Positions 26,119-41,003 of a DNA stretch of 64,000 nt are shown in pieces (position 1 is the stretch's first letter; every line of letters starts with the position of its first letter). The notes under the pieces are model-generated. The model saw only the letters and a list, made by a program, of their open reading frames with translations. It had not been told where the DNA came from and did not search any database. The translations under genes were made by a program, and so were the position numbers. Source of the stretch: Rhizobium sp. Leaf371 (lineage in GTDB: Bacteria; Pseudomonadota; Alphaproteobacteria; Rhizobiales; Rhizobiaceae); the NCBI RefSeq assembly GCF_001424045.1, contig NZ_LMQB01000028.1:254765-318764 (forward strand), read 5' to 3'.

Positions 26119-27030
26119 CTACCGCTCGAACGGCTCGCCGAGCGAGGCGACGCCGTTGAGTTTGAGGAGGCGCCGGTCGGCCGAGATGATGCCGAGGACG
26201 ATGATGGTGACGAGGTAGGGGAGGCTGGACAGGAGTTGCGAGGGCAGGTCGAGGCCTGTGGCCTGTGCGGCAAGCGACATCAGCGACACCGCCCCGAACA
26301 GGCAGGCGCCGAGGAAGATGCGGCCGGCGAGCCAGGTGCCGAACACGACGAGCGCGATCGCGATCCATCCGCGGCCGGCGATCATGCCGTCGGCCCAGAG
26401 CGGCGTGTAGACCGCGGCCGCATAGGCGCCGGCAAAGCCCGCCATCATGCCGCCGAAGGCGATGGCCGCGACCCGCACGGCGATCACGGGATAGCCGATC
26501 GCATGGGCCGCCTTCGGGTTCTCTCCGACCGCGCGAAGGACGAGCCCGACCCGGGTCAAGGCAAAGGTGGCCCAGATCGCCAGCGTCGCGGCAAGGGACA
26601 GCCAGACGACCATGTCCTGCACGAAGAGACCGCCGACGATCGGGATTTCGGACAGGCCGGGCACGGCAAGTTTCGGCAGGCCCTTGATCGTCAGGCTCTC
26701 GTAGCTTTTGCCGAACAGCGCCGAGAGGCCCTGTCCGAGAATGCCGATAGCAAGACCGGTGGCGACCTGATTGGCCCGAAAGCCGAGAGCGACGAAGGCG
26801 AAGACGAGCGAGAGGAGAGCACTCGCCGCACCCGCCGCGAGGAACCCGAGGATATGGCCCCCGCCGTGATAGACGGTGATGAAGGCGATGACGGCGCCGA
26901 GCGCCATGAGGCCTTCCACCCCCAGATTGAGGACGCCGGCGCGCTCGACCACCATTTCGCCGAGCGCTGCGAGCAGGAAGGGGGTGGCCGCGGCCAGCAT
27001 GCCGGCCAGGATGAACTCGATCGCGTTCAT
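26119..27030 (-). CDS. BMP-type nucleoside ABC importer permease (second)
   Basis: A 303-residue permease of the BPD_transp_2 family (YufQ/NupC-like half of basic membrane protein importers). Eight or so hydrophobic segments; AERAGVLNLGVEGLMALGA near residue 28 is the conserved family signature. With the upstream permease, ATPase and BMP protein it forms a nucleoside or purine-type importer. ATG overlaps the previous stop by ATGA (27027-27030). It is the last gene of the eight-gene operon, and 172 bases without a gene separate it from the convergent ROK gene. Confidence 0.92.
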   Translation of the reverse strand: MNAIEFILAGMLAAATPFLLAALGEMVVERAGVLNLGVEGLMALGAVIAFITVYHGGGHILGFLAAGAASALLSLVFAFVALGFRANQVATGLAIGILGQGLSALFGKSYESLTIKGLPKLAVPGLSEIPIVGGLFVQDMVVWLSLAATLAIWATFALTRVGLVLRAVGENPKAAHAIGYPVIAVRVAAIAFGGMMAGFAGAYAAAVYTPLWADGMIAGRGWIAIALVVFGTWLAGRIFLGACLFGAVSLMSLAAQATGLDLPSQLLSSLPYLVTIIVLGIISADRRLLKLNGVASLGEPFER

Positions 27031-28124
27031 GTCGGGTTCCTTGTGGCGGTCGGCCAGGCGAGACGGTAGCGCACGAAGGACACCGCGATCAGATAGGACA
27101 GAAGCAGGACACCCTGGAAGACCCGCACCACGGCAATGGGCAGGTTGGCCGACACCATCGCATTGTCGCCGCCGATATAGATGACCGCCATGACCAGCGA
27201 GGAAACGATGATGCCGAGCGGATGCAGGGCCCCGAGATAGGCGACGATGATCGCGGCATAGCCGTAACCCGTGGGGATGGAGCGCTGCAACTGCCCGAGC
27301 GGGCCGGCAACCTCCGCCGCGCCGGCCAGACCCGCCGCAAAGCCGCCGATCAGGAGCGACAGCCAGATCGCGCGGCCTTCGCTGAAGCCGGCATAGCGCG
27401 CGGCGCGCGGCGCCATGCCGCCCACCTGCAGCGTGTAGCCCATGAAGCTCTTCTGCATGAACACCCAGGCGGCGAGAGACGCGGCGAAGGCGAGGAGCAG
27501 CGAGACGTTGACCCGGGTGCCCGGGATGAGGGTCGGCACCATCGCATCATATTGAAACAGCACCGATTGGGGAAAGTTGAAGCCGTTCGGGTCCTTCCAG
27601 GGCCCGAGCAGCAGAAAATAGAGAAACTGGATCGCCACCAGGCTCAGCATCAGCGAGACGAGGATCTCGTTCGCATTCAGCCGGACCCGCCAGAAGGCCG
27701 CGATCGAGGCCCAGAGTGCACCGCCGACGGCCCCGAGCAGCAGCATCGATGGCCAGATCCAGCCGCCTGTCGCCTGCGGAAACCAGACCGGAATGGCCGA
27801 GGCGAAAATGGCGCCGAGCACGAACTGGCCCTCCGCCCCGATATTGAAGACCCGCGCGCGAAAGCCGATCGCAAGCCCCTGTGCGATCAGCAGCAGGGGC
27901 CCCGTCTTCAGGAGCACCTCGGAGAAGGAGGCCCAGGACAGAAAAGGCTCGAGAAGCATCGCGTGCAGCACCGTGGCCGGATCCCGATCGATGGCCACGG
28001 ACAGGAGCAGATTGAGAAGGATCGCAACGGCGAGCGCGATCGGCGGTGCGATGAGCGTTGCGGTCAGCGACGCACGGTCGCGGCGCACGAGGGAGGGGAA
28101 GAGATCGAGGAGAGATCGTGTCAT
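27027..28124 (-). CDS. BMP-type nucleoside ABC importer permease (first)
   Basis: A 365-residue permease of the same BPD_transp_2 family (YufP-like), with about nine hydrophobic segments. The signature stretch GFRARVFNIGAEGQFVLG near residue 86 is clear. The family imports nucleosides, purines or related heterocycles. It overlaps the ATPase stop by ATGA at 28121-28124 and the next permease in the same way, so the membrane unit is made by coupled translation. Confidence 0.92.
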   Translation of the reverse strand: MTRSLLDLFPSLVRRDRASLTATLIAPPIALAVAILLNLLLSVAIDRDPATVLHAMLLEPFLSWASFSEVLLKTGPLLLIAQGLAIGFRARVFNIGAEGQFVLGAIFASAIPVWFPQATGGWIWPSMLLLGAVGGALWASIAAFWRVRLNANEILVSLMLSLVAIQFLYFLLLGPWKDPNGFNFPQSVLFQYDAMVPTLIPGTRVNVSLLLAFAASLAAWVFMQKSFMGYTLQVGGMAPRAARYAGFSEGRAIWLSLLIGGFAAGLAGAAEVAGPLGQLQRSIPTGYGYAAIIVAYLGALHPLGIIVSSLVMAVIYIGGDNAMVSANLPIAVVRVFQGVLLLSYLIAVSFVRYRLAWPTATRNPT

Positions 28125-29644
28125 GCCGTGGTCTTTCCGCCCTGCGCCTGTGCGCCGATCATGTAGCGGCCGATCTCCTCCGGCAGGGTGTCCCGCGTGA
28201 TCAACGGCCGGCTGAGCGTTCCGTGGTAGAGCACCTGGATCGTGTCGCAGAGCTCGAACAGCTCTTCGAGTTCCTCGGAGATGACGAGGATGGCCATGCC
28301 GGCATTGCGCAGCGCGATGAGCCGCTGGCGGATGGCCGAGGCGGCGCCGATGTCCACGCCCCAGGTCGGTTGCGCGACGAAGAGCAGCTTCGGCGCCAGC
28401 ATGATCTCGCGTCCGACGATAAATTTCTGGAGATTGCCGCCCGAGAGCGAGCCGGCTTCGCTTTCCGGCCCGCCCGTGCGGACGTCGAAGTCGCGGATGC
28501 AGTCGGTCGTGAACGCGCGCGCCCGGGCGCGATCGACGAGGCCCCGTTTCAGGAGGTTCAGCGGATGCGCCGTCAACAGGCTGTTGAGCACCAGCGACAT
28601 TTCGGGGACCGTGCCGCGGCCCAGGCGGTCTTCCGGCACGAAAGCGAATCCAAGGGCACGCCGCTCCGCCGGGCGCAGCGGCCCGACATCCCGGCCCATC
28701 ATGAAGATGCGGTCCGGATGCTCGCGGCCGAGCCGGGTCTCGCCCGAAATCAGGCCCGCCAACTCCCTCTGGCCGTTGCCGGAAACGCCGGCAATGCCCA
28801 GGATTTCGCCGGCGCGGACGGACATCGTGATCTGGGAGAGGGGGACGGCGAAAGGATCATCGGGCGTGTGGTCGAGGCCGATGATCTCCAGCTGCTTGTC
28901 TCCGTCCGCAAAGGGCACGGCCGGGATCGGCTCGGGCATGTCGCGGCCGATCATCATCCGCGCGAGATCCTGCGCATCGTGCTCGCGCGGATCGACGTGG
29001 CCCGTCACCCGGCCGCCGCGCAGGATCGTCGCCCGATCGCAGATCGCCCGGATCTCGTCCAGCTTGTGGGAGATGAAGAGGATGGAGACGCCACCGTCAC
29101 GCAGGCGTCGCAGCGTCTCGAACAATTTTTCCACCAGCTGCGGCGGCAGCACGGAGGTGGGTTCGTCGAGGATCAGAAGTTTCGGATCGGTCATCAGGCA
29201 ACGGATGATCTCCACCCGCTGGCGTTCCCCCACGGAGAGCGCATGTACCTGGGCCAGCGGATCGACGTCGAGGCCGAAGCTGCGCCCGAGCGTGCGGATG
29301 CGGTCGACCAGCGCGGCCTTGCGGCCGGGCACGACGAGCCGGATGTTGTCGACCACCGTCAGGGTCTCGAACAGCGAGAAGTGCTGGAAGACCATGCCGA
29401 TGCCCTTGCGCCGCGCGTCCGCCGGCGACGCAAGGCTTAAGGGTTCGCCCTGCCAGACGGCGGCTCCGCCATCCGGCTTTTCCACGCCGTAGATGAGTTT
29501 CATCAGCGTCGATTTGCCGGCCCCGTTTTCGCCGAGGATCGCATGGATCGAGCTTTCGCCCACATCGAGATCGATCTCCCGATTGGCCTTGATCGGACCA
29601 TAGCTCTTCGAAATGCCGCGAAGCGACAGAAGCGGGGCTGTCAT
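28121..29644 (-). CDS. BMP-type nucleoside ABC importer ATPase (two ABC domains)
   Basis: A 507-residue protein with two ABC domains, like YufO and the sugar importer RbsA. First domain: Walker A GENGAGKSTLMK near residue 38, signature LSVGERQRVEIIRCL near 144, Walker B LLILDEPTSVL. Second domain: degenerate Walker A GVSGNGQRELA near 284, signature LSGGNLQKFIVGREI near 403. The second site is expected to be poorly active, which is usual for this family. Stop of the BMP protein gene lies three bases upstream. Confidence 0.94.
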   Translation of the reverse strand: MTAPLLSLRGISKSYGPIKANREIDLDVGESSIHAILGENGAGKSTLMKLIYGVEKPDGGAAVWQGEPLSLASPADARRKGIGMVFQHFSLFETLTVVDNIRLVVPGRKAALVDRIRTLGRSFGLDVDPLAQVHALSVGERQRVEIIRCLMTDPKLLILDEPTSVLPPQLVEKLFETLRRLRDGGVSILFISHKLDEIRAICDRATILRGGRVTGHVDPREHDAQDLARMMIGRDMPEPIPAVPFADGDKQLEIIGLDHTPDDPFAVPLSQITMSVRAGEILGIAGVSGNGQRELAGLISGETRLGREHPDRIFMMGRDVGPLRPAERRALGFAFVPEDRLGRGTVPEMSLVLNSLLTAHPLNLLKRGLVDRARARAFTTDCIRDFDVRTGGPESEAGSLSGGNLQKFIVGREIMLAPKLLFVAQPTWGVDIGAASAIRQRLIALRNAGMAILVISEELEELFELCDTIQVLYHGTLSRPLITRDTLPEEIGRYMIGAQAQGGKTTA

Positions 29645-29647
29645 GAC

Positions 29648-30751
29648 TTACTTGGGCAAGGGGGTGGCGACACCCTTGACGTGCCAGTTCATGGCGATGA
29701 TTTCCGCATCCGCCATCGTCGCGCCGGCTGCCACGCCCTCGCTGCCATCCGCCTTGGCGATCGGCCCGGTGAACGGCGAGAAGCTGCCGGCCGCGATCTT
29801 GGCCTCCAGGTCCTTGATCTTCGCCATGGTGTCGGCGGGGATGGCCGGGTTCCAGTCCACGACCTCCACGACCTTTTCCGCAACGCCGAGAAACGCGTTC
29901 GCGCCCTTGAACGTGCCGGCCACATGGGCATCGACGGACGCCTTGAAGAAGGGCGACCAGTCGGTCGCGACGCAGCCGAGATAGGTCTTCTCGGCATATT
30001 TCTTCATCGAGGAATTCAGGTTGAAGGCGTAAATGCCGGCCTCTTCGCAGGCTGCGACCACCGAGGGCGTGTCCTGCGCGTTGGAGAAGATCACATCGCA
30101 TGTCTGTGCGATCAGCGCCTTGGCGGCCTCCTGCTCCTTGGCCGGGTCGAACCAGGAATTGACCCAGACCACGGAGACCTCGATCGCAGGATTGACCGCC
30201 TGCGCGCCGAGCGTGAAGGCATTGATCGAGGTGATGAGTTCCGGAATGGCGAAGGCCGAGACCGAGCCGAGCTTGCCGGTCTTGGACAGGGCGGCGGCGG
30301 CCATGCCGAGCAGGTAGGTGCCCTGGAAATACTTGGCGGCAAACGGCGAGAAGTTCGGCGCAACCTGAAAGCCGGAGGCGTGCAGAACGGTGACGCTCGG
30401 GTCGCGGCGGGCGATCTGCAGCGCCCCGTTCTGGTATCCGAAGGAGCCGGCGATCAGCACCTTGTTCCCGTCGGCAACCGTTTTGGTCATGATGCGGTCG
30501 GCATCGGGGCCTTCGGCGATGTTTTCGAGAATAGTGACCTTCACCTTGTCGCCATAGGCGGCCTTGATCGGCTCGAGGCCGGCGGCGAGCGCGTGGCCCC
30601 AGCCCACATCGCCGACCGGCGAGGGGATGACGAGGGCAATGCCCAGCGGCTCGTCGGCGGCAAAGGCAAGGCGGCTGCCCAGCGCACCGGCAAGGCCGGT
30701 TGCCGCAGCGGCTTTCATCATGTGTCGGCGTGTCAGTTCGGTGTTCACCAT
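29648..30751 (-). CDS. BMP-family substrate-binding lipoprotein-type protein with Tat signal
   Basis: A 367-residue basic membrane protein (Med/PnrA) family binding protein. The N-terminus has a twin-arginine motif, LTRRHMMKAA, followed by a hydrophobic stretch ending near AFA (about residue 31), so export by Tat is likely. The family binds purine nucleosides, allantoate-like compounds or other heterocycles. Conserved features include IVIPSPVGDVGWGHA-like N-terminal strand residues and AGSFGYQNGALQIARR near 112. It lies between the amidohydrolase and the ATPase genes. The linkage points to a purine-type ligand, though the sequence does not identify it. Confidence 0.92.
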   Translation of the reverse strand: MVNTELTRRHMMKAAAATGLAGALGSRLAFAADEPLGIALVIPSPVGDVGWGHALAAGLEPIKAAYGDKVKVTILENIAEGPDADRIMTKTVADGNKVLIAGSFGYQNGALQIARRDPSVTVLHASGFQVAPNFSPFAAKYFQGTYLLGMAAAALSKTGKLGSVSAFAIPELITSINAFTLGAQAVNPAIEVSVVWVNSWFDPAKEQEAAKALIAQTCDVIFSNAQDTPSVVAACEEAGIYAFNLNSSMKKYAEKTYLGCVATDWSPFFKASVDAHVAGTFKGANAFLGVAEKVVEVVDWNPAIPADTMAKIKDLEAKIAAGSFSPFTGPIAKADGSEGVAAGATMADAEIIAMNWHVKGVATPLPK

Positions 30752-30775: not shown

Positions 30776-32155
30776 TTAGAATTCAACGGTTGCGAGCGCG
30801 GCTTCGGCTTCGGCGGCCAGTTTCGCCTCGTCCAGCCCCGGAAACTCGCCGTTCTGCCAGACGACACGGCCATTGATCATCGTCATGTCCACCGTGGCGC
30901 CGATGCCGACGCGCGCAATCAGGCTCAGCGGGTCGTGCCGTGTGCCGACATAGTCCATGCGGCGCGTGTCGATGGCGAAGAGATCCGCGGCCATGCCGGG
31001 CGCGAGGCGGCCGATGTCGCGGCGACCGAGCAGGCTCGCCCCGCCGCTCGTGCCATAGCGCAGGAAATCGACCGGCGGCGGCACGGGATGCGCGCGGGTG
31101 GACGAAACCAGGCACTGGAGCATGTAGGCCGAGTGCAGGCAGTGCATCAGGTTGGAATTGTCGTTGGAGGCCGCACCGTCGCAGCCGAGCCCGAGGCGCA
31201 GGCCGAAGGCGGACATGGCGGGGATATCGGTCACCTCGGCGCCGACGAGATAGACCGGTTCCGGGCAATGGGAGACACCCGTGCCGCTCGCCGCCATCGT
31301 CCGCAGTTCGTCATGGGTCAGCTCCCAGCAATGGGCGTAGAAGGTGTCCGGCCCGGCAAAGCCGAGGTCTTCCAGATAATCGACGGTGCGCCGCCCGTGC
31401 CGCGCCTGCATGACCGGGCTTTCGCCTTCGCCGACATGGGTGTGCAACATCACGCCGCGGTCCCGCGCCAGCGCCACGGACTCCACGAAGGTCTCGCGGT
31501 AGCAATTGACCGGCTGGCAGGGCGCGACGACGACCTGCCGCATGCTGAACGGGCCGGCGTCGTGATAGGTGTCGATCAGGCGGTCGCAATCGGCGATGAA
31601 TTCGTCCGTCGTCTCCAGCATCTCGTCGGGGATCGTCGATCCCTCCGATTTCGGCAGCGTATTGCCGCCGCGACCGGCGTGGAACCGCATGCCCAGGAGA
31701 TCGGCAGCCTCGAACTGACGGTCGATCAGCCGCTTTCCGGCGTGGCGGGGAAAATTGTACTGGTGGTCGAAGGCGGTGGTGCAGCCGTGCTTGATCAGTT
31801 CGGCCATGGCGGTCAGCGACGATTGGTAGAAACAGGCCTCGTTGAGCTGTGAAAAGATCGGATAGATGCGATCGAGCCATTCGATCACCGACAGCTTCGT
31901 CCAGTCGAGGTCGGCCCGGTTGCGCACGAAGCACTGGAAGAAATGGTGATGCGTGTTCACGAGGCCGGGGTAGACGAACCAGCCGCTGGCATCCTGCTCG
32001 ACGGTGCCGGCCGGCAGAGATCCGAGCGCGAGATCGGCGCCGATGGCGGAAATGGCGGACCCTCGCGTGAGGAGATCGACATTGCGGCGCACGAAAGGAC
32101 CGTCGCCCTCGTCCACGATCACGGCCGCACAATTTCTGAGGAGATAGCCGCTCAT
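30776..32155 (-). CDS. 8-oxoguanine-deaminase-like amidohydrolase
   Basis: A 459-residue amidohydrolase of the COG0402 deaminase group. Metal and substrate motifs in order: VNTHHHFFQCF near residue 65, MLHTHVGEGES near 237, FYAHCWELTHDE near 271, SHCPEPV near 291, and LGCDGAASNDNSNL near 319. The HHHFFQ and DGAASND versions are those of 8-oxoguanine/isoxanthopterin-type deaminases, distinct from cytosine or guanine deaminases. It removes an exocyclic amino group from a purine- or pterin-like ring in the cytosol. One base separates it from the GST gene. Annotation as hydroxyatrazine ethylaminohydrolase is a common database alternative. Confidence 0.85.
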   Translation of the reverse strand: MSGYLLRNCAAVIVDEGDGPFVRRNVDLLTRGSAISAIGADLALGSLPAGTVEQDASGWFVYPGLVNTHHHFFQCFVRNRADLDWTKLSVIEWLDRIYPIFSQLNEACFYQSSLTAMAELIKHGCTTAFDHQYNFPRHAGKRLIDRQFEAADLLGMRFHAGRGGNTLPKSEGSTIPDEMLETTDEFIADCDRLIDTYHDAGPFSMRQVVVAPCQPVNCYRETFVESVALARDRGVMLHTHVGEGESPVMQARHGRRTVDYLEDLGFAGPDTFYAHCWELTHDELRTMAASGTGVSHCPEPVYLVGAEVTDIPAMSAFGLRLGLGCDGAASNDNSNLMHCLHSAYMLQCLVSSTRAHPVPPPVDFLRYGTSGGASLLGRRDIGRLAPGMAADLFAIDTRRMDYVGTRHDPLSLIARVGIGATVDMTMINGRVVWQNGEFPGLDEAKLAAEAEAALATVEF

Positions 32156-32156
32156 G

Positions 32157-32816
32157 TCAGACCTCGCTCTGTTCGAGATTTGGTTCGGGTTTCAGCTCAT
32201 GCAGGCGGTGAATGCCGGGCATCTCGATGAAGCCGGGGAGCGCGCGAAGCGCGCGCGACCAGAGGCGGATCGCCGGATAGGGATCGAGCGACACGCCGCC
32301 GTCCGGCGCCAGCGCCACATAAGGGAAGCAGGCGATATCGGCGACGGTCGGCCGGTCGGACACGAGGAAATTCCGGCCCCGCAGCCGCTGCTCGACGAGA
32401 CCCGCCTCCAGTTCGCGAAGTGCGGCGATGCCCGCCGCCTGCAAAGCGGCGAGATCGCCCGGACGCAGCAACATTTCGTGCAGACGCGCACCACCGAGGC
32501 TCGTCGTCAGCCGGCCCGAGAAGGACAGCCACTGCTGCTCGCGCGCAGCATCTTCCGCCGAGGCGCGCCCGAGCCATTCCGGCGCTGCTTTGGCGGCGAG
32601 ATAGACGAGGATCGCCGCGGACTCCGTGAGGATCAGGTCGCCATCGACCAGGATCGGGATGGAGCCGCCCGGGTTGAGCGAAAGCAGTTCCGGGCCGCGA
32701 TGCTCCCCGCCGGGGTGGAAATCGACGGCCCTGAGGTCGAGTGTCGCGCCGGCAAGCGCTGCCATCAGGCGAACTTTGTAGCAGCTGGGCGAGAGGATAT
32801 AGTCGTAGAGTTTCAT
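32157..32816 (-). CDS. Glutathione S-transferase family protein (possible NdmE-like scaffold)
   Basis: A 219-residue two-domain GST. The thioredoxin-like N-terminal domain has LSPSCYKVRLMAALAG near residue 8, the cis-Pro region GGSIPILVDGD and the glutathione-binding ES in LTESAAI near 64; an all-helical C-terminal domain follows (about 90-205). It shares a stop/start overlap (TAATG) with the cluster-less oxygenase gene upstream. In the Pseudomonas 7-methylxanthine demethylase a GST homologue, NdmE, holds oxygenase and reductase together. The same gene company here suggests a similar structural role, but ordinary glutathione transfer is equally compatible with the sequence. Confidence 0.88.
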   Translation of the reverse strand: MKLYDYILSPSCYKVRLMAALAGATLDLRAVDFHPGGEHRGPELLSLNPGGSIPILVDGDLILTESAAILVYLAAKAAPEWLGRASAEDAAREQQWLSFSGRLTTSLGGARLHEMLLRPGDLAALQAAGIAALRELEAGLVEQRLRGRNFLVSDRPTVADIACFPYVALAPDGGVSLDPYPAIRLWSRALRALPGFIEMPGIHRLHELKPEPNLEQSEV

Positions 32817-33682
32817 TATCGCGCCACCAGCTGAGCGCCGTAGGTGAAATTGTGCCGCTTCAGCCAGCGCCGATAGGCGATGGACGTCAGGTCGGCCCGT
32901 GTCGGAATTTCCATGCCGGGATCGAGCGGCAGGAGCCGGGGGATCTGGTTCTCAAGGATCGAGCGATCCTGCAGGAAGATCATCTGCTGGAAATGGATGA
33001 GATCCGTCATCGATGTCTCATCGTCGAACAGCGCCATCCAGGGCCAGACGTCACACCGATCCTCGGCCAGCGGCTGGACGAAGAGCGTGATCACATCCCA
33101 TTCGCTCGGCCGCGGCGGGCAGGTCTTGTAGAGCACGGAACAGGTCGGCGCGGGCACGCGGTACATATATTCGGTCGTGATGCCCCCGCTGGCCGACTTC
33201 GAGGCCTGTGGCTGGTAAAATTTGACCTGGGTCGCCCAGACCTCGTCCACATCGGGCCGGATCTCGGCCGTGTAGTTCAAGACCTCGGTATGCGGTTCGG
33301 CGCCGAGCACATCGGTGTGGACGAACGGAAAATGGGCGATGTCGAGGAAATTCTCGACCGCGCGCAGCGGCGAGCAGCGCACCCGCACGACGCCGACATC
33401 CACAAAGCGCCGACCCGGCTGATCGGCCTCCGGAATCGGGAAGATATCCTTCGTCGGTGCGCCGACCGACGACCAGACATGACCATAGCGGACCTTGACC
33501 GGCAGGATGCGACCGTTGCCGCCCGTGACGATCGGACGGCCGTCGGCATCGCCGGCGACCACGATCGGCTCGCCCATGAGCGCCGTGTGCCGGCCGGCCC
33601 TGTCGAGCTGGCTGACGAGGCCGACGGGATACCATTCGTCGAGCATGGCTTGACGGTAGGGGGCGGGATCAGATCCTGTCAT
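32816..33682 (-). CDS. Rieske-type oxygenase catalytic subunit lacking the Rieske cluster (NdmC-like)
   Basis: A 288-residue homologue of VanA/NdmA-type mononuclear iron oxygenases. The catalytic domain is intact: ENFLDIAHFPFVHTD near residue 105 holds the two iron histidines, and LQDRSILENQ near 237 supplies the likely Asp ligand. The N-terminal 80 residues start like a Rieske oxygenase (LDEWYPVGLV, LMGEPIVVAGD), but the section that should hold C-x-H and C-x2-H is replaced by GGNGRILPVKVRYGHVW, with no cysteines. It therefore needs an external Rieske cluster, and the adjacent upstream gene encodes one, overlapping it by ATGA. The length is close to NdmC (about 280). Substrate unknown; a purine is suggested by context. 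Confidence 0.85.
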   Translation of the reverse strand: MTGSDPAPYRQAMLDEWYPVGLVSQLDRAGRHTALMGEPIVVAGDADGRPIVTGGNGRILPVKVRYGHVWSSVGAPTKDIFPIPEADQPGRRFVDVGVVRVRCSPLRAVENFLDIAHFPFVHTDVLGAEPHTEVLNYTAEIRPDVDEVWATQVKFYQPQASKSASGGITTEYMYRVPAPTCSVLYKTCPPRPSEWDVITLFVQPLAEDRCDVWPWMALFDDETSMTDLIHFQQMIFLQDRSILENQIPRLLPLDPGMEIPTRADLTSIAYRRWLKRHNFTYGAQLVAR

Positions 33683-34344
33683 TGCACGTTCCCATTTGCA
33701 GAGGCCGTCTCCGCCATCCGCCGCAGCCTCTCGACGTTGCGCGAAGCCGCGATGCGTTGAGGCGCGTGGCTTCCCGTCGCCACCAGCACATGGACAACCG
33801 TCCGGACACCGGTCTGGCTTTGTTGCGAACCGGACAGCAGCAGACAGAGATCCTCGCCGTCCCGCGTAATCTCGATCAAGCCGTCGGCGTTTGCCGGTAC
33901 ACCGGCAGCAGCCTCGATCGCTGCGCGGTCGGCCTCGATTGTCAGCGAGCGCAAGGGGGTCAACCCGTCCAGCGATGGCGGATCCGACGCGGGCGTGCCT
34001 TCCGCGACCCAGACGACACCTCCGGCATCTCGCACCGCATGTGTCGCCACGCGGATCGTCTCGGGCGGCGTCAGGCCGGGATGCGCGGGAATGCGAACAC
34101 AGTGTCCGCTCATCCCGTAGCTCCATCCATGATAGATGCAGGAAAGCGCCTCGCCGCGGACAAAACCATGCGACAGGCTCATGCCGCGATGGGGACAGCG
34201 ATCCGCCGAAGCTGCGATCTGTCCGGCCTGGCTTCGCCACAGGGCGATGGTGCCGGCGGAGACATGGGCCGGAATGACAGTTCTGGAGGGAATGTCGGCA
34301 GAAAGGGCGACTGGCGTCCAAAAGCCTGTCGTATCGGAGCGCAT
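33679..34344 (-). CDS. Stand-alone Rieske [2Fe-2S] protein
   Basis: A 221-residue protein with a complete Rieske motif near residues 47-72: CPHRG and CIYHGWSY, spaced C-x-H-x16-C-x2-H. The domain covers about residues 8-115. The remaining hundred residues hold no iron-ligand motif and no reductase domains. It is the first gene of the eight-gene operon and overlaps the cluster-less oxygenase gene by ATGA. I infer that it delivers electrons to that oxygenase in trans. In NdmD the comparable Rieske domain is fused to an FMN/NADH/ferredoxin reductase; here no reductase gene follows. Confidence 0.85.
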   Translation of the reverse strand: MRSDTTGFWTPVALSADIPSRTVIPAHVSAGTIALWRSQAGQIAASADRCPHRGMSLSHGFVRGEALSCIYHGWSYGMSGHCVRIPAHPGLTPPETIRVATHAVRDAGGVVWVAEGTPASDPPSLDGLTPLRSLTIEADRAAIEAAAGVPANADGLIEITRDGEDLCLLLSGSQQSQTGVRTVVHVLVATGSHAPQRIAASRNVERLRRMAETASANGNVQ

Positions 34345-34509: not shown

Positions 34510-34779
34510 TCACGCCAGTCGTCGCGTCTCCAGTGGCTGGCGGTCGATCGTCTCCACCCAGACATCGATCGGACCCAGAAGGCAGCCGACCTCCAGCATG
34601 TCGATCAGCTCTTCCGGTCCACGCAGGTCGAGTTCGATCCGCCGGTTATCGGCATGGGAAATCGTCTGGCGCAAACCCAGCTTGGCGGCATGCCGGTTGA
34701 TCCAGGGGAGGAAGGCGGCGATATCGAGGTCGCCGAGGATCGTCATCCGCTGCTGCAGCTCGTCCCGCTCGTCCTGCAT
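34510..34779 (-). CDS. Acylphosphatase-like small protein
   Basis: An 89-residue conserved-looking protein with an acylphosphatase-like pattern: FLPWINRHAAKLGLRQTI near residue 23, then RIELDLRGPEELIDML and LLGPIDVWVETI. True acylphosphatases have a catalytic Arg in GRVQGVGFR and an Asn in the next strand; the Arg-containing loop is absent here, so the enzyme activity is doubtful. It is divergent from the phospholipase D gene. The gap upstream to the Rieske gene (34345-34509) holds nothing I can name. Confidence 0.6.
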   Translation of the reverse strand: MQDERDELQQRMTILGDLDIAAFLPWINRHAAKLGLRQTISHADNRRIELDLRGPEELIDMLEVGCLLGPIDVWVETIDRQPLETRRLA

Positions 34780-34883: not shown

Positions 34884-36386
34884 ATGGCCAGGCGACGAAC
34901 CGACCCTATCTCTGCTGCTGAAAAGTTCAGGGAGCGGGGTGCGATGCAGACAATTCTGGCGGAAGGTGAGACCTGCTGGCGGACCGCCCGCGCTGACAGG
35001 CTTTCGGTCATCGTCGATGCCGAGGCCTTCTTTCGCCATGCGCGGACGGCGATGATGAAAGCCAAACGATCGATCGTGCTGATCGGCTGGGATTTCGACA
35101 CGCGCATCGACCTGGTGCCGGGCAAGAGCACGGACGGTTCGCCTGACAAGCTCGGCCGGTTTTTCAACTGGCTCGCCAAGCGCAACGACGCGCTGAACAT
35201 CCGCATCCTCAAATGGGACATGGGCCTGTTTGCCTCGCTCGTGCGGGGCGAGACCCCGGTCTACATGCTGGGCTGGCTGTTTTCGGATCGCGTCAGCCTG
35301 AAGCTCGACAGCGCCCACCCGGCCATGTCCGCGCATCATATGAAACTGCTGGTCATCGATGACGCGGTCGCCTTCTGCGGCGGCATCGACATGACGGTCG
35401 GACGGTGGGACACGACGGATCACATCGAAAAGGACAAGCGCCGCCGTTCGCCGCTCGGCTTTCCGCAGGACCCCTGGCATGACGCGACGACCTGCTTTTC
35501 CGGTGAGGCCGCGGCGGCTCTGGCCGAACTCGCGCGCTCCCGCTGGCAGGAGGCCACGTGGGAAACTCTGGAGCCCGTCGAGAGCGGATCGGACGCCTGG
35601 CCGGACGATCTCGCCGTGGGTTTTCGGGATATCGATCTGGGCATCGCCCGCACTCTGCCGCAATACGACGAGCGCCAGCAGGTGGTCGAGATCGAGACGG
35701 CAACGCTCGCGATCATCGCCGCGGCGCAGAAGACACTCTATATCGAAAGCCAGTATTTCGCATCGCGTCGGATCGCCGAAGCCCTGGCCGGGCGTCTGGC
35801 GGAGCCGGAAGGCCCAGAGATCGTCGTCATCAATCCGGAAGGCGCGAACGGCTGGCTCGAGGCGCAGGTCATGGACTCCGCCCGTATCCGCCTGATGAAG
35901 CTCGTGCGCGATGCCGACGGGTTCGACAGGTTCCGCATCCTCTATCCGGTCAACGATGCGGGTACGCCGATCTATGTCCACGCCAAGATCATGATCGCCG
36001 ACGACCGCATCCTCAAGCTCGGCTCCGCCAACCTCAACAATCGGTCCATGGGCTACGACACGGAATGCGACGTGCTGATCGAAGCGCCGGAAAACCGGCC
36101 GGAGACGGCGCAGACGATCTTGGCCTGTCGCAACGCGCTGATCGGCGAACATCTCGGGCGCACCGAGCACGAGGTGGCCGCGGCCATCACCGAGCATGGC
36201 TCGCTGATCAAGGCCATCGAGGGGCTCACGGCCGAGACGGGACGGCGGCTGGTGCCGGTGGTCATGCGGGAGCTCACGACGGCGGAGGAACTGATGGCGG
36301 AGTCGGATATCGCCGATCCCGAACGGCCGGCCGGTGTCAAATACAAGACGGCAAAATTCCTCAAACGGCGGTTCCGTCGGCCCTGA
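34884..36386 (+). CDS. Phospholipase D-family protein with two HKD motifs
   Basis: A 500-residue PLD superfamily enzyme. First catalytic motif: SAHHMKLLVIDDAVAFCGG near residue 150 (H-x-K-x4-D). Second: YVHAKIMIADDRILKLGSA near 363, followed by NLNNRSMG. No clear signal peptide. Members hydrolyse phosphatidylcholine-like lipids or transfer phosphatidyl groups. The start at 34884 (MARRRTDP) could be later, at the Met 21 residues on. A promoter region with the divergent small gene precedes it. Confidence 0.9.
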   Translation: MARRRTDPISAAEKFRERGAMQTILAEGETCWRTARADRLSVIVDAEAFFRHARTAMMKAKRSIVLIGWDFDTRIDLVPGKSTDGSPDKLGRFFNWLAKRNDALNIRILKWDMGLFASLVRGETPVYMLGWLFSDRVSLKLDSAHPAMSAHHMKLLVIDDAVAFCGGIDMTVGRWDTTDHIEKDKRRRSPLGFPQDPWHDATTCFSGEAAAALAELARSRWQEATWETLEPVESGSDAWPDDLAVGFRDIDLGIARTLPQYDERQQVVEIETATLAIIAAAQKTLYIESQYFASRRIAEALAGRLAEPEGPEIVVINPEGANGWLEAQVMDSARIRLMKLVRDADGFDRFRILYPVNDAGTPIYVHAKIMIADDRILKLGSANLNNRSMGYDTECDVLIEAPENRPETAQTILACRNALIGEHLGRTEHEVAAAITEHGSLIKAIEGLTAETGRRLVPVVMRELTTAEELMAESDIADPERPAGVKYKTAKFLKRRFRRP

Positions 36387-36412
36387 GGACACGTGCCAAC
36401 GGAGCTCAGGGC
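36380..36412. terminator. Possible bidirectional hairpin between convergent genes
   Basis: Eight-base perfect arms (GCCCTGAG and CTCAGGGC) with a 17-base loop span the stop codons of the phospholipase D and alcohol dehydrogenase genes. No T-tract follows on either strand, and both arms touch coding sequence, so termination is only suggested. Confidence 0.3.
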
Positions 36413-37425
36413 ACGACGAGGACGCGGATCTCACCGTTTCCGGCAGGGTGGGAAATGGCCTCGGCGGCATCATCGAGGCGGATCGTGCGGCTGACGAGTT
36501 CGGCGACCTTGACCGTGCCCGAGGCGATGAGGGCGGCCGCCCGGGCATGGGTAAACGGGTTCAGGAACGAGGGGATGACCCTGACTTCGCGAAACAGGAG
36601 GTCGAACGGCGAGAACGCGACCGTCGTGCCCTGCGGGAGAACGCCAAGGAGGATGACGGTTCCGCCGCGTCGCGCGAGGTGAGGCGCCTGTTCGACGGTT
36701 TCAGTCAGTCCGGCGCATTCGAACACCACATCCGCCCCACCGGCTATCACGCCCTGAGCCCCGACGGTGCGGTCGATGACATCGCCCGAAGAAGGATCGA
36801 GCGTTGCCGTCGCGCCGAGATTTTCGGCAAGTCTGCGCTTGCTCTCGCTGCGCGTGACGAGGACGACATCGGTTGCGCCCGCCAGCCGTGCGAGTTGCAC
36901 GACGAGCAGCCCGATGACGCCGCCGCCGATGACGATGACGGAGGCTCCCGGTTTGATCTCCGCCAGATCGACGCCGTGCAGGCAGCAGGCGAGAGGTTCG
37001 CAGAAGGCGCCATGCAGGGAATCGAGCGTCTGGGGCAGGACGAAAGCCTGCGTTTCCGGCAGGATGACGAATTCCGCAAAGCCGCCATTGCGATGAATGC
37101 CGATGGCCTGAAGGTTGTGGCAGAGATTGACACGGCCCCGGTGACACTCCGGGCAGCGGCCGCAGGCGATGTTCGGATCGCCGGTCACGCGCATGCCGGG
37201 CGCAAAACCCGAGACGTGCTCGCCGATGGCTTCGATGACACCGGAGAATTCGTGCCCCAGCGTGACCGGCGGTTTTGCGGGAAACTCTCCGAGATAGAGA
37301 TGCCGGTCCGTGCCGCAAATGCCGCAGGCCTCCACGCGTACGAGGAGGTCATGCGGACCGGGCTCGGGCCTGGCGGTCTCCCGCAAGGCCAATTGTCCGA
37401 CATCATCGAGAAAAAGCGCTTTCAT
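36406..37425 (-). CDS. Zinc-dependent medium-chain alcohol dehydrogenase
   Basis: A 339-residue MDR-family dehydrogenase with both zinc sites: catalytic Cys in ACGICGTDRH near residue 35 and His in TLGHEFSG near 57; structural cysteines in CGRCPECHRGRVNLC near 88. The nucleotide fold carries VIGGGVIGLL near 168. It resembles sorbitol/L-idonate/threonine-type dehydrogenases that act on polyols or sugar acids. It follows the lyxose isomerase gene by 20 bases and ends the FadR-linked sugar operon. Substrate undetermined. Confidence 0.9.
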   Translation of the reverse strand: MKALFLDDVGQLALRETARPEPGPHDLLVRVEACGICGTDRHLYLGEFPAKPPVTLGHEFSGVIEAIGEHVSGFAPGMRVTGDPNIACGRCPECHRGRVNLCHNLQAIGIHRNGGFAEFVILPETQAFVLPQTLDSLHGAFCEPLACCLHGVDLAEIKPGASVIVIGGGVIGLLVVQLARLAGATDVVLVTRSESKRRLAENLGATATLDPSSGDVIDRTVGAQGVIAGGADVVFECAGLTETVEQAPHLARRGGTVILLGVLPQGTTVAFSPFDLLFREVRVIPSFLNPFTHARAAALIASGTVKVAELVSRTIRLDDAAEAISHPAGNGEIRVLVVP

Positions 37426-37445
37426 CCTATTCCTCCATCCTGCGT

Positions 37446-38144
37446 TCAGGAGAGCCAGGCCGCATAGTCGGAAACGAGCAGCCGGGCCGGGGCCTCGTCC
37501 TCCTCGATCCCGGAAAACCGGGTCACATCGGGGTTCTCGAAGATATTGTCGGCGGTATCGTCGTTGACGGTCGAGACCTCCGCGACGAAGACGTCCGCCG
37601 TTTCCGCCCAGAAGGCATGCCAGTCGCCAGGCCGCAGCGTCACGCTCTCTCCAGGGGCAAGCGCGAGCTTTGCGCCCGGCGGCAGCACGCGCTCGATGCC
37701 ATCGCAGAGCACGGTCGTGCCCCGGGTCCGGTCGCAGCGCCCGTCGGTGTCGCCGAAGAGCTCGATGACCAGCGTTCCCCCGCCGCGATTGATGATGTCC
37801 TCGGTCTTCAGGACATGCGTGTGGCTGGGCGTGACCTGATGTTCCCGCGAGATCATCGCCTTTTCGGCGTAGAGCATGCCGCCGCCGCGCTTCAGGTCGG
37901 CCAGTCGGCCGTTGCGGGTCGTGAACAGAAGAAGCCCGGTTCGCGCGAAATCGCCGAGGCCGAAATCGGTCATGTCCCAGCCGAGACCCGCATCGATGAT
38001 GTTGCCGATCTCGCCCCGGCGCGCCTGCATCTCGGCGGGCGTCCAGTTGGCGAAGGGCGGCAGGATGTAACCGTGGGAGGCCATGAAGGCCTGGGCCTCA
38101 CGCAGGATGCGGTTGATGTCGCTTCTCAGCAGCTTGTTCGTCAT
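37446..38144 (-). CDS. D-lyxose isomerase
   Basis: A 232-residue cupin-type D-lyxose ketol-isomerase (interconverts D-lyxose/D-xylulose and often D-mannose/D-fructose). The family stretch EKAMISREHQVTPSHTHV near residue 93 supplies the metal-binding Glu and His residues, followed by KTEDIINRGGG and RPGDWHAFWAE near 165. Length agrees with the family (about 225). It lies 19 bases after the SDR gene stop and 20 before the alcohol dehydrogenase, so it is in the same operon as the FadR regulator. Confidence 0.92.
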   Translation of the reverse strand: MTNKLLRSDINRILREAQAFMASHGYILPPFANWTPAEMQARRGEIGNIIDAGLGWDMTDFGLGDFARTGLLLFTTRNGRLADLKRGGGMLYAEKAMISREHQVTPSHTHVLKTEDIINRGGGTLVIELFGDTDGRCDRTRGTTVLCDGIERVLPPGAKLALAPGESVTLRPGDWHAFWAETADVFVAEVSTVNDDTADNIFENPDVTRFSGIEEDEAPARLLVSDYAAWLS

Positions 38145-38163
38145 GGCAGTTCTCCCGGATGTT

Positions 38164-38961
38164 TCAACGCACGCCGATGCCGGCGGTGAGACCGCCGTCT
38201 ATGCGGTGGTCGGAGCCTGTGATGAAGGCGGCCTTGTCGGAGACGAGGAAGGCGACGAGATCCGCCACTTCTTCCGGCTCGCCGATCCGCCCGATCGGGT
38301 GGGCGGCGCCGAACCGGCGGAAAACCTCTTCGATATCCGCGTCCGGTCCCTCGAATGTGCGCGCCGCCAGCGCCAGAATGGGCGAGCGCACCGAACCGGG
38401 GCTGATCGAGACGACGCGGATGCGGTCCGCGGCGAAATCGAGCGCCATCGCCCGGGTCATCGCGTGAATGGCGCCCTTGGAGGCGACATAGGCGGAAACG
38501 CCGCTCTGGCAGGCATGGCCCTGGACGCTCGACAGGTTGACGATAACGCCGCCGCCGCGCCTGCGCATCTCGGGCACGCCGAACTGTGCCGTCAGGTGGA
38601 TGGAGCCGACATTGACCGCCATGCAGCGCAGAAAATCCTCGAACGGCGTCTGCGTCGCATTACCATAGGGATGGATCGCGGCGGCATTGACGATGATATC
38701 GATGCCGCCGCCGGGCGCAGCAGCGGTCGCGATCGCCTGTTCGACGGCTGTGGGGACGGACACATCGACGTCGAGCACCGACATCGCAAGGCCGATCGAA
38801 CCGGCGTCGTCGCGCAGCGCCGCATTGGCCGCCTGGTCGATCCCGAGAGCAAACACCGTCGCTCCGCTCTCGCCGAGATTAAGGGCAACGGCCCGTCCGA
38901 TGCCGGTCGTGCCGGTGACGACGGCGATTTTTCCCGCCAACGCGCGCATCTCTTCACTCAC
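38164..38961 (-). CDS. Short-chain dehydrogenase/reductase
   Basis: A 265-residue classical SDR with the cofactor motif VVTGTTGIGRAVA near residue 14, catalytic Ser in NLSSVQGHA and the YVASK motif near 152. I chose GTG at 38961 because AGGAGA lies six bases before it; the ATG at 38949 has a much poorer site. The start overlaps the FadR regulator stop by eight bases. It may act as the oxidoreductase that makes mannonate or fructuronate for the divergent mannonate dehydratase, but the sequence alone does not prove this. Confidence 0.88.
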   Translation of the reverse strand: MSEEMRALAGKIAVVTGTTGIGRAVALNLGESGATVFALGIDQAANAALRDDAGSIGLAMSVLDVDVSVPTAVEQAIATAAAPGGGIDIIVNAAAIHPYGNATQTPFEDFLRCMAVNVGSIHLTAQFGVPEMRRRGGGVIVNLSSVQGHACQSGVSAYVASKGAIHAMTRAMALDFAADRIRVVSISPGSVRSPILALAARTFEGPDADIEEVFRRFGAAHPIGRIGEPEEVADLVAFLVSDKAAFITGSDHRIDGGLTAGIGVR

Positions 38962-39703
38962 GTTCCGTCTCCTGCTGCTGTCCGGATCGATATGTCTCAG
39001 CGCCGGGCATGAAGACGAGCCCTGCACTCAAGTGCCGGTCCATGTGGTAGGCAAAGCCGATCCGGTCGCGGCTGCGCAGCGCCTCCACGATCGCCTGATG
39101 CTCGATGAAGACGTGCTCCAGCGTGGATCGCTTGGTCTTGCCCGCCATCATCAGCCGGCGGATGACCGGTTTCAGCATGCCATAGGTCTCCGTCAGCGTG
39201 CGATTGCCAGCCGCAGCGACGAGCGCCATGTGAAAGGCATAATCGCGCTCCGAGGCCTCGTCGGCGCTGCCGGCCGTGGGTATGGCGGCGTTGATGGCCT
39301 CCAGCCGGGCCAGAGCCTCCGCATCAAGGTGCGCCATCAGCAGGTCGAAGAGGTTCATCTCGGTCAGGCGCCGAAAGCCCTGAATGTCCTGGAACGCATC
39401 CGTCGAGACCTCCATCGCAAAGGCGAAGAGGTCCTGCATGGCCGTGTTGTGCCCGTCTGTGAGGACCGCGCCGAGCTTCTGGCGGGATTCCGCAATGCCG
39501 TAGGCCTTCAGTGTGCGGATGGCTTCGCGGATCGTGCCGCGGCTGGTCGCGAACATATCGGCAAGTTCGACCTCGCCCGGCAGGACGTCGCCGATGCCCA
39601 TGCGGCGGTCGCGGATCATGGCGCGGATCTGGATCACCACTTCATCCACGGCCGACGCCTTCGTGTCCGGCATGTGGGATGTCGCAGTCACTCTTGCAGC
39701 CAT
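38954..39703 (-). CDS. FadR-subfamily GntR transcriptional regulator
   Basis: A 249-residue regulator with an N-terminal winged helix (about residues 20-85; ELADMFATSRGTIREAIRTL) and an all-helical FCD ligand domain. It is divergent from uxuA and starts its own operon with SDR, lyxose isomerase and alcohol dehydrogenase genes. A sugar acid such as glucuronate-derived fructuronate or mannonate is a plausible effector. Confidence 0.92.
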   Translation of the reverse strand: MAARVTATSHMPDTKASAVDEVVIQIRAMIRDRRMGIGDVLPGEVELADMFATSRGTIREAIRTLKAYGIAESRQKLGAVLTDGHNTAMQDLFAFAMEVSTDAFQDIQGFRRLTEMNLFDLLMAHLDAEALARLEAINAAIPTAGSADEASERDYAFHMALVAAAGNRTLTETYGMLKPVIRRLMMAGKTKRSTLEHVFIEHQAIVEALRSRDRIGFAYHMDRHLSAGLVFMPGAETYRSGQQQETERE

Positions 39704-39782
39704 CTCGACGGCCTCGACGTTATGTTAGGCATTTTCGCCTGGAAATGGTTTGATCTTGCATTTCCATCCCTCTGATGTGTTT

Positions 39783-39795
39783 ATTGTCCTACATT
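39783..39795. promoter_or_regulatory. Candidate FadR/GntR operator upstream of uxuA
   Basis: ATTGTCCTACATT fits the GT-N3-AC core of FadR-subfamily operators (T-N-GT-N3-AC-N-A/T). It lies 17 bases before the uxuA ATG, just ahead of the GAGGAGA ribosome site. A related inverted half-copy (ATGTTAGGCAT) occurs at about 39723-39733 near the regulator start. Binding by the adjacent FadR-type protein is inferred. Confidence 0.5.
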
Positions 39796-39812
39796 AAATC
39801 GAGGAGACGTCA

Positions 39813-41003
39813 ATGCTGGAAAGTTGGAGATGGTTCGGCGAGAGCGACCCGGTGACCCTGTCGCATGCGCGCCAAGCCGGTGCGCAGGGCATCGTCACGG
39901 CCCTGCACCACATCTATGACGGTCGCGCCTGGTCTCTCGAGGACGTTTCCGAGCGGAAGGCTGCCATCGAGCGTGCCGGCATGGTCTGGTCGGTCTGCGA
40001 ATCCATTCCGGTCAACTCCGCGATCAAGCTGCGCAACGGGCAATGGCGCGACTATGTCGATCGCTGGAAGGTGAGTCTTGCCAATCTGGGCCGCGCCGGC
40101 ATTCCCGTCGTCTGCTACAATTTCATGCCGGTGGTCGATTGGACGCGTACGGATCTGCGGTATCCGACCGCGACCGGCGGGCTCGCCCTGCGGTTCGATA
40201 TGGCCGATTTTGCCGCCTACGATCTGTTCGTGCTGAAGCGCGCCCGAGCTGAGGAAAGCTACCGGCCCGATCTCGTGGAAACGGCGCGCCGGCGCTTCGA
40301 GGCTCTGTCCGACGACGCCTTGCTGCGGCTCGAGACCAATATTATCGCGGGCCTCCCGGGCAAGGAGGATACGCATACGCGCGAGGGTATCCGCACCCAG
40401 ATTGCCAGTTTCGACGAGATCTCCTCGGCCGACATGCGCGCCAATCTCATCGCGTTCCTGAAAGAGGTCGTGCCGGTTGCGGCCGAGCACGGGGTTCGCC
40501 TTGCGATCCACCCCGACGACCCGCCGTTCTCGCTGTTCGGCCTGCCGCGTGTCGTCTCGACCGCCGAAGACATCTCGGCCATCCTTGAGAGTGTCGATCA
40601 TGAGGCCAACGGGTTGACGCTGTGTGCCGGCTCCTACGGCTCGCGACCTGACAACGACCTGACGCAGATGGCGACGCGGTTTGCCGACCGGATCCATTTC
40701 GTGCATCTGCGCAACGTCCGCAAGGAAGCGGACGGGTCTTTCATCGAGTCGGATCATCTCGATGGCGATGTCGATATGGTCGCACTGGCGACCGCGCTGC
40801 GGCGCGAAGAACGGCGGCGCGAAGCGGCGGGACGGACAGACAGCGTCATCCCCTTCCGCCCCGACCACGGCCATCTCCTGATCGACGATCAGGCGAAGAC
40901 CGTCAATCCGGGCTATTCCTGCATCGGTCGGCTCAAGGGGCTGGCCGAGCTGCGCGGCGTCATCGCCGCCGTCGATGCATTCGACGGCGCGCGTCCCGTC
41001 TGA
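39813..41003 (+). CDS. uxuA: Mannonate dehydratase
   Basis: A 396-residue UxuA-family TIM-barrel enzyme that dehydrates D-mannonate to 2-keto-3-deoxygluconate in hexuronate breakdown. It starts MLESWRWFGESDPVTLSHA and contains VWSVCESIPVNSAIK near residue 55, GIPVVCYNFMPVVDWTR near 98 and the metal-binding region AIHPDDPPFSLFGLPR near 230. GAGGAGA sits seven bases before the ATG. Length matches E. coli UxuA (394). It is transcribed away from the FadR-SDR-isomerase operon. Confidence 0.95.
   Translation: MLESWRWFGESDPVTLSHARQAGAQGIVTALHHIYDGRAWSLEDVSERKAAIERAGMVWSVCESIPVNSAIKLRNGQWRDYVDRWKVSLANLGRAGIPVVCYNFMPVVDWTRTDLRYPTATGGLALRFDMADFAAYDLFVLKRARAEESYRPDLVETARRRFEALSDDALLRLETNIIAGLPGKEDTHTREGIRTQIASFDEISSADMRANLIAFLKEVVPVAAEHGVRLAIHPDDPPFSLFGLPRVVSTAEDISAILESVDHEANGLTLCAGSYGSRPDNDLTQMATRFADRIHFVHLRNVRKEADGSFIESDHLDGDVDMVALATALRREERRREAAGRTDSVIPFRPDHGHLLIDDQAKTVNPGYSCIGRLKGLAELRGVIAAVDAFDGARPV

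Follow-up and report, generated by a model that had tools for sequence, protein, structure and literature searches.

A candidate NdmC-kind Rieske oxygenase with its two metal centres on separate proteins and a predicted role in methylated-purine use in Rhizobium sp. Leaf371

Introduction

In caffeine-degrading Pseudomonas, NdmC is devoid of a Rieske centre of its own, NdmD carries an extra one, and NdmE, a homologue of glutathione S-transferases (GST), binds both. The NdmCDE system of Pseudomonas putida CBB5, a 7-methylxanthine N7-demethylase, is described as a 3:3:3 complex with specificity for 7-methylxanthine (PMC10380055), and its structure was termed unsolved in 2026 (PMC13237722). Eighteen clusters of ndmCDE homologues, mostly from Sinorhizobium and Mesorhizobium, have been reported (Summers 2013, as cited in PMC4408171), and these may include part of the branch described below; partial sets of ndm genes are treated in PMC8055839. 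Here we analyze a 64,000-nucleotide stretch of Rhizobium sp. Leaf371 (contig NZ_LMQB01000028.1, positions 254,765 to 318,764; hereafter the window), which encodes on its minus strand, from 34779 to 32157, an acylphosphatase-like protein, a stand-alone Rieske protein, an oxygenase lacking a Rieske cluster and a GST homologue. We consider it fairly probable that these four genes specify a single NdmC-kind Rieske oxygenase of several subunits, which derives from reciprocally decayed copies and removes an N-methyl group from an imported methylated purine. Our literature search, which covered titles and abstract openings and left most subscription papers outside, found no split system of this branch, no methylguanine demethylase of this kind and no paper joining Rieske, acylphosphatase, glutathione S-transferase and oxygenase.

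Results

Two metal centres on two proteins

The four genes and the main evidence for each are as follows.

34510..34779, minus strand: predicted acylphosphatase-fold protein, 89 residues, 270-base gene, catalytic residues gone (open reading frame; Pfam Acylphosphatase 17.0 bits, cut-off 22.5)
33679..34344, minus strand: stand-alone Rieske [2Fe-2S] protein, 221 residues, with a putative C-terminal remnant catalytic domain (Pfam Rieske 72.2 bits)
32816..33682, minus strand: NdmC-like oxygenase, 288 residues, iron ligands intact, with a putative cluster-less Rieske remnant (Pfam VanA_C 66.6 bits)
32157..32816, minus strand: NdmE-like GST homologue, 219 residues (Pfam GST_N and GST_C)

VanA_C is the sole Pfam match of the oxygenase, in which Pfam finds no Rieske domain, and its iron-site residues (N111, D114, H117, H122 and D239) are invariant in 24/24 aligned relatives. 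Rieske is likewise the sole Pfam match of the second protein; its cluster ligands, C50-x-H52 and C69-x2-H72, are invariant in 51/51 aligned sequences, and no reductase domain is detected by Pfam in its 221 residues (for the family alignments, 50/66 Rieske and 31/32 oxygenase non-redundant rows were used). Cluster and mononuclear iron are therefore not on one chain, as they are in unsplit enzymes of the VanA/SxtT type, nor is there a complete alpha subunit with its own cluster beside a separate ferredoxin, as in three-component systems, the oxygenase giving no Rieske match in Pfam. The genes are tightly packed, the oxygenase and Rieske genes overlapping by 4 bases (33679-33682) and base 32816 being common to the oxygenase stop and the GST start; 165 bases separate the end of the acylphosphatase-like gene from the Rieske start. 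They form the first part of a single minus-strand gene run, probably an operon, which extends from 34779 to 26119 and continues with an amidohydrolase, a BMP-type binding protein, an ABC ATPase and two permeases, every junction from the Rieske gene to the amidohydrolase gene being an overlap or a one-base gap.

An earlier annotation made from the letters alone (the sequence-only reading) had proposed a split, three-part oxygenase at this place, composed of an oxygenase with an intact iron domain and no Rieske centre, a Rieske protein not fused to a reductase, and a GST homologue joined by a one-base overlap. Its coordinates and frames for the three genes were correct, and these descriptions are borne out by the data above. 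The three parts are real, but at least one more dedicated gene belongs with them: the gene at 34510-34779 had been overlooked, as had the remaining operon genes as far as 26119. Similarly, the two centres do reside on two proteins, but the arrangement does not look like a simple split, the Rieske half carrying what appears to be a remnant catalytic domain.

Probable reciprocal decay of two copies

The best PDB matches of both proteins are SxtT and SxtDIOX (GxtA), unsplit oxygenases which, in contrast to the present pair, bear both metal sites on a single chain. By sequence, the two proteins match complementary parts of these enzymes (in a phmmer search of the PDB, the Rieske protein aligns with SxtDIOX residues 12-130 and the oxygenase with residues 108-333), while by fold they match whole chains. 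The complementary coverage resembles a cut, but candidate remnants point to more than a cut. Indeed, the oxygenase family aligns with unsplit Rieske oxygenases, beginning at their first Rieske strand and reaching their end, with only the cluster-bearing stretch skipped (E 1e-67), and the start of the Rieske family (positions 5-47, 43 columns) aligns with the oxygenase N-terminus, positions 13-55 (E 0.00027, hhalign probability 41.5). The Rieske protein has in turn about 90 extra C-terminal residues, common to the Rieske-reductase linker stretch of NdmD-type proteins, and 20 columns of this region match the catalytic domain at its 'FVQP' strand with a score of 28.7 (probability 26.4), the controls reaching at most 15.0 in 40 column shuffles, 15.8 with the GST, 10.9 with the acylphosphatase-like protein and 12.9 with a reductase. 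Its AlphaFold model (predicted local distance difference test, pLDDT, 94.6) arranges its strands and its long helix at the C-terminus as they are ordered in the catalytic domain, and Foldseek aligns it with entire SxtT/GxtA chains, the alignments spanning 253 to 279 columns and the highest TMq being 0.73, the oxygenase model reaching a TMq of up to 0.83 against the same chains.

Judged from profiles and predicted folds, each protein is thus one that retains a remnant of the domain which the other uses. Because the Rieske half appears to bear a remnant catalytic domain, a simple split is less likely than reciprocal decay: an ancestral full-length enzyme would have existed in two copies, each losing one metal centre, and these copies would be today's Rieske protein and oxygenase.

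Conservation of the gene group

Co-occurrence of the three genes, which the sequence-only reading had put forward in advance as one of two tests that could overturn it, was found at every locus inspected: Rieske protein, GST and oxygenase are together at 112/112 loci, among which are a few duplicates. These loci comprise the best 80 (all at least 61% identical) of at least 528 stretches encoding a relative in GTDB contigs, hereafter the close loci, and two further sets of 16 split loci (L031-L045 with L047, and L136-L151); L048, L057 and L126, whose contigs are equal in length to those of L031, L032 and L145, were taken as repeats of them, so that three loci are counted both among the close loci and in the further sets. 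Rieske and GST genes accompany the oxygenase in 80/80, 16/16 and 16/16 of these sets, respectively, and all four components are present at four loci outside the 112 (L199-L202). By hand count, an amidohydrolase homologous to that of the window comes next in 70/80 close loci. With the GST model nothing was found beside 11/11 unsplit relatives, although 10/11 of those stretches span just 10 kb. The grouping of the three genes is not due to chance.

By tblastn, 273 plasmid records contain a relative, 128 of them from Rhizobium and 123 of them at 80-90% identity; the Rhizobium laboratory strain 3841 is among those with an orthologous operon. Any match, unsplit kin being counted, was obtained in 28/101 related genomes and in 24/398 and 13/385 genomes of the phylum and class samples; genomes bearing the module are a minority. 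The split locus of one related genome (G001) was covered in part only. In one complete chromosome assembly (L122, 9.9-15.0 kb), the operon copy is split into several frames, perhaps through decay or sequencing error.

Relation to NdmCDE and position in the tree

As a comparison set we took three genes of plasmid pPPUT-Tik1-1 of Pseudomonas putida, which carry the annotations oxygenase, Rieske protein and GST and to which the names NdmC-, NdmD- and NdmE-like were assigned here from gene order and domains. The window oxygenase is 43.6% identical to the NdmC-like protein over 280 residues, nearly its full length, the Rieske protein 42% to the NdmD-like one over 105 residues and the GST 41% to the NdmE-like one over 205 residues, while ordinary Rieske oxygenases, alignment to which was the other outcome named beforehand as refuting, are only distantly alignable with the oxygenase. 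The relation to NdmCDE proposed by the sequence-only reading is consequently upheld. It extends to a cluster-less oxygenase with intact iron ligands, a Rieske domain on another protein, a GST homologue and a purine context. The differences are that the Rieske domain of NdmD is fused to an FNR-type reductase, whereas that of the window is free with no cognate reductase linked; that an acylphosphatase-like gene is additionally present in the window; and that its oxygenase falls outside the NdmC-like branch, represented in our tree by the NdmC-like protein of L023 and not by CBB5 NdmC.

The tree comprised 83 oxygenases, with 24 of the 80 GTDB loci used and with L022, L031, L032, L047, L145, fragments shorter than 150 residues and weak matches left out. 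Sixteen unsplit oxygenases lie on one side of a branch with support 92/89, not starred; as they are all on one side, the tree favours one origin of the split without establishing it. The window belongs to a 46-row clade (95/98). This clade also takes in the two-oxygenase loci and one Komagataeibacter module, and both the Pseudomonas NdmC-like protein and the Rieske-reductase fusions of Rhizobium and Sinorhizobium fall outside it. This exclusion supports a distinct branch, as had been suspected from the letters, namely an alphaproteobacterial one outside the NdmC-like branch and mostly without linked reductase.

Rieske-reductase fusions are scattered over several clades. In addition, on a Variovorax plasmid (L028, 7659-9617) it is the oxygenase domain that is joined to an FNR/Fer2 reductase, the Rieske protein being free and encoded, like the GST, next to it, and a Komagataeibacter plasmid from kombucha (L026, 5966-11456) has a free VanB-type reductase between two oxygenase modules. 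Taken together, these layouts mean that the modules have been recombined on more than one occasion. Separately, unsplit relatives of the oxygenase occur near BMP-type transporter genes at L046, L152-L155 and L159-L161, and are perhaps kin of the ancestor.

A fourth component

The product of 34510-34779 is predicted to be a non-catalytic protein of the acylphosphatase fold and the fourth conserved component. It matches the Pfam model below the cut-off, as listed above; its homologue at L035 reaches 30.6 bits, and that of L026 gives no Pfam match. The Arg and Asn that we take to be the catalytic residues of acylphosphatase are kept in 1/102 and 0/102 rows (a few of them duplicates), their positions being drawn from a weak alignment (E 0.39) to a solved acylphosphatase; G16, G54 and L68-G69-P70 are invariant in the 102 rows of the family.

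The gene is present at 78/80 close loci, the exceptions being L057 and L093. In a profile search of 101 genomes, hits of at least 73 bits were obtained in 14, all at the module, and hits elsewhere did not exceed 58 bits, a gap which places the protein in 14/16 genomes with the module of this branch (not in G017 and G070) and in 0/85 others. It was not found beside 11/11 loci scored as Rieske-reductase fusions (L023, L027, L030, L043, L044, L136, L137, L139, L140, L142 and L148). Four loci of the window's clade (L042, L146, L147 and L149) show neither this gene nor a reductase in the stretch covered, and L144, also in that clade, has a separate reductase gene with the acylphosphatase-like gene some 5 kb on. 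Overall, among 67 split rows, 40 have only the acylphosphatase-like gene, 16 only a reductase, 3 both (L026 twice, and L144) and 8 neither. The idea that the protein stands in for a reductase was considered and is not supported: just 4 independent pairs lie on starred branches, too few for the tree to test it.

At seven loci (L029, L037, L038, L040, L041, L047 and L138), two oxygenases apparently share one acylphosphatase-Rieske-GST set, and several of these loci adjoin an amidohydrolase, in some cases guanine deaminase. L039 and L045 group with the two-oxygenase loci and have a single oxygenase in the stretch covered.

Electron donor

The sequence-only reading had called for an unlinked reductase. 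The absence of a linked cognate one is confirmed; the donor cannot, however, be narrowed to the VanB type. Within up to 10 kb on each side of the 80 close loci, the only reductase is a PaaE-like gene in L101 (403.5 bits, cut-off 420.8), which, being PaaE-like, was not counted as a partner. The Leaf371 genome itself contains a single VanB-like gene, which lies 80 kb ahead of the window and adjoins a 367-residue Rieske-domain frame, and a second FNR-type frame adjoining a 418-residue one. It also has, on another contig (C4; L158, 3006-5732), a GST gene with the gene of a PNPOx-FAD-NAD-Fer2 fusion reductase immediately after it, which makes another pairing of GST and reductase. VanB-like genes are not enriched with the module (10/16 module genomes versus 40/83 without it, two fused-reductase genomes being set aside), and a VanB-type reductase as obligate donor was rejected, as 6/16 module genomes (G015, G018, G025, G070, G081 and G099) have no hit at E 1e-15. 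Three of these (G015, G025 and G070) encode further FNR-type frames in which a plant-ferredoxin motif is present and which could serve; this motif was not seen in the NAD-binding hits examined in G081 (3/3), G099 (3/4) and G018 (4/7). The donor may be a general one, for example a ferredoxin-NADP reductase with a ferredoxin.

Operon neighbours and purine context

The remainder of the probable operon is as follows.

30776..32155, minus strand: amidohydrolase of the 8-oxoguanine-deaminase family, 459 residues, predicted pathway deaminase (NCBIfam PRK08203 366.4 bits, cut-off 532)
29648..30751, minus strand: substrate-binding protein of the BMP/PnrA type carrying a TAT-like signal (Pfam Bmp, 138.8 bits; the TAT_signal match, at 21.9 bits, lies slightly below the cut-off of 22.7)
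28121..29644, minus strand: ABC transporter ATPase, double domain (Pfam ABC_tran, two stretches)
27027..28124, minus strand: ABC permease (Pfam BPD_transp_2)
26119..27030, minus strand: ABC permease (Pfam BPD_transp_2)

The best PDB match of the amidohydrolase is 7ww2 (8-oxoguanine deaminase / hydroxydechloroatrazine ethylaminohydrolase; 1.3e-85). Around relatives of the module, guanine deaminase genes are found above the curated cut-off at L035, L111, L029 and L151 and by similarity at L037-L040, L123, L124 and L138, and CDA-type deaminases by similarity at L126, L145, L151 and L045; in some relatives a true guanine deaminase thus takes the place of the 8-oxoguanine-deaminase-like enzyme. Formaldehyde dehydrogenase is encoded at five related loci (L136, L137, L139, L143 and L144), that of L144 narrowly passing TIGR02818 (545.2 versus 543.95). 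Other purine genes also recur near relatives, including HpxO, allantoinase and a xanthine dehydrogenase family protein, and a frame of L041 has sub-cut-off matches to pucC and pucD, two models of xanthine dehydrogenase. At the genome level, xanthine dehydrogenase is above cut-off in 10/10 module genomes, and Leaf371 has a separate guanine deaminase (566 bits, cut-off 375.4) beside its xanthine dehydrogenase; the operon deaminase therefore probably acts on a modified base. The deaminase, formaldehyde and xanthine dehydrogenase context together favours demethylation of a methylated guanine or xanthine.

Elsewhere in the window, a phospholipase D-like protein is encoded divergently from the operon (34884-36386), followed by a sugar-acid gene group (36406-41003) with a zinc dehydrogenase, a D-lyxose isomerase, an SDR, a GntR/FCD regulator and a mannonate dehydratase.

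Discussion

We thus favour, with moderate confidence, a single NdmC-kind oxygenase which N-demethylates an imported purine. In the mechanism that we propose, the copy that kept the [2Fe-2S] cluster would have become the Rieske protein, and the one that kept the mononuclear iron would have become the oxygenase. An unlinked donor would pass electrons to the Rieske protein, and these would cross a protein-protein interface to the oxygenase iron, comparable to the subunit interface of ordinary trimers, in which approximately 12 Å separate the Rieske cluster from the iron of the adjacent subunit according to a 2025 review (PMC12445004). The GST-like protein may hold the pair together, with the acylphosphatase-like protein as a non-catalytic partner. 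The methylated purine, most likely 7-methylguanine or 7-methylxanthine, would be taken up by the BMP-type importer of the operon and lose its N-methyl group as formaldehyde; the operon deaminase would handle the amino group, and the product would then be passed on to urate by housekeeping enzymes. The complex itself, the path of the electrons, the substrate and the reaction are all predictions.

Several observations weigh against this reading. The comparison was made with the pPPUT-Tik1-1 set and not with the characterised CBB5 NdmCDE proteins, and the support of the branch on which a single origin depends (92/89) is short of the tool's mark. From sequence alone, evidence for the remnants is modest (hhalign probabilities of 41.5 and 26.4), and since only the Rieske part aligns when the whole Rieske family profile is searched against unsplit relatives (E 6e-40), the signal of the catalytic remnant is weak on its own. 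The AlphaFold model of the oxygenase has a pLDDT of 81.7 and falls below 50 at residues 117-130, which hold two of the iron ligands. On the functional side, the window operon showed no formaldehyde gene, L144 is the only one of the five formaldehyde dehydrogenase loci to lie in the window's clade, and the operon deaminase is under the 8-oxoguanine-deaminase cut-off (366 versus 532).

A further-reaching proposal, which we put forward tentatively and hold to be on the doubtful side, is that the acylphosphatase-like subunit of a reductase-less four-subunit oxygenase of reciprocally decayed copies docks a housekeeping ferredoxin, so that a shared Rieske/GST/acylphosphatase unit would power interchangeable oxygenases and salvage methylated guanine from RNA turnover in plant-associated bacteria; that the oxygenases would be interchangeable is suggested by the two-oxygenase loci, which point to sharing. 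It seems unlikely, for its part, that the enzyme hydroxylates a purine ring carbon, guanine being converted to 8-oxoguanine and then to urate by the 8-oxoguanine-deaminase-like enzyme. Indeed, although the operon deaminase is closest to 8-oxoguanine deaminases and HpxD, annotated as a subunit of a Mo-independent xanthine hydroxylase, is distantly related (about 30%, with 60% of the query covered), far closer relatives are NdmC-like, some relatives have a true guanine deaminase in the operon, formaldehyde dehydrogenase accompanies five related loci, and a molybdenum xanthine dehydrogenase is present in 10/10 module genomes. We also regard as improbable a different N-alkyl or ring substrate, such as a modified nucleoside, a pterin or a cytokinin-like base, entering through the BMP transporter. 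BMP-type importers and the 8-oxoguanine-deaminase family take varied ligands, and the nearest NCBI models of the transporter are 'putative B6', all below their cut-offs; however, the neighbourhoods of relatives repeatedly contain genes for guanine deaminase, xanthine dehydrogenase, allantoinase and urate hydroxylase, all of which indicate purine bases. Finally, the recruitment of an ordinary Rieske ferredoxin beside a cluster-losing oxygenase, by gene fission or replacement and without reciprocal decay, would account for a small and separate Rieske protein, as in three-component systems, and for a C-terminal match to the catalytic domain that is short in sequence (20 columns), but appears very improbable, as the Rieske domain has its best match in the oxygenase-type SxtDIOX/SxtT and aligns with unsplit relatives at E 6e-40, and as the C-terminal region resembles a catalytic domain by both sequence profile and predicted fold.

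If the four genes do encode one purine-demethylating oxygenase, its two centres, being on separate proteins, could each be titrated, mutated or swapped independently. The acylphosphatase-like protein, of which we found no earlier description, would add a component to such systems. Moreover, the branch suggests a role for the NdmC kind beyond caffeine, and predicts a route of purine-methyl salvage on many Rhizobium plasmids.

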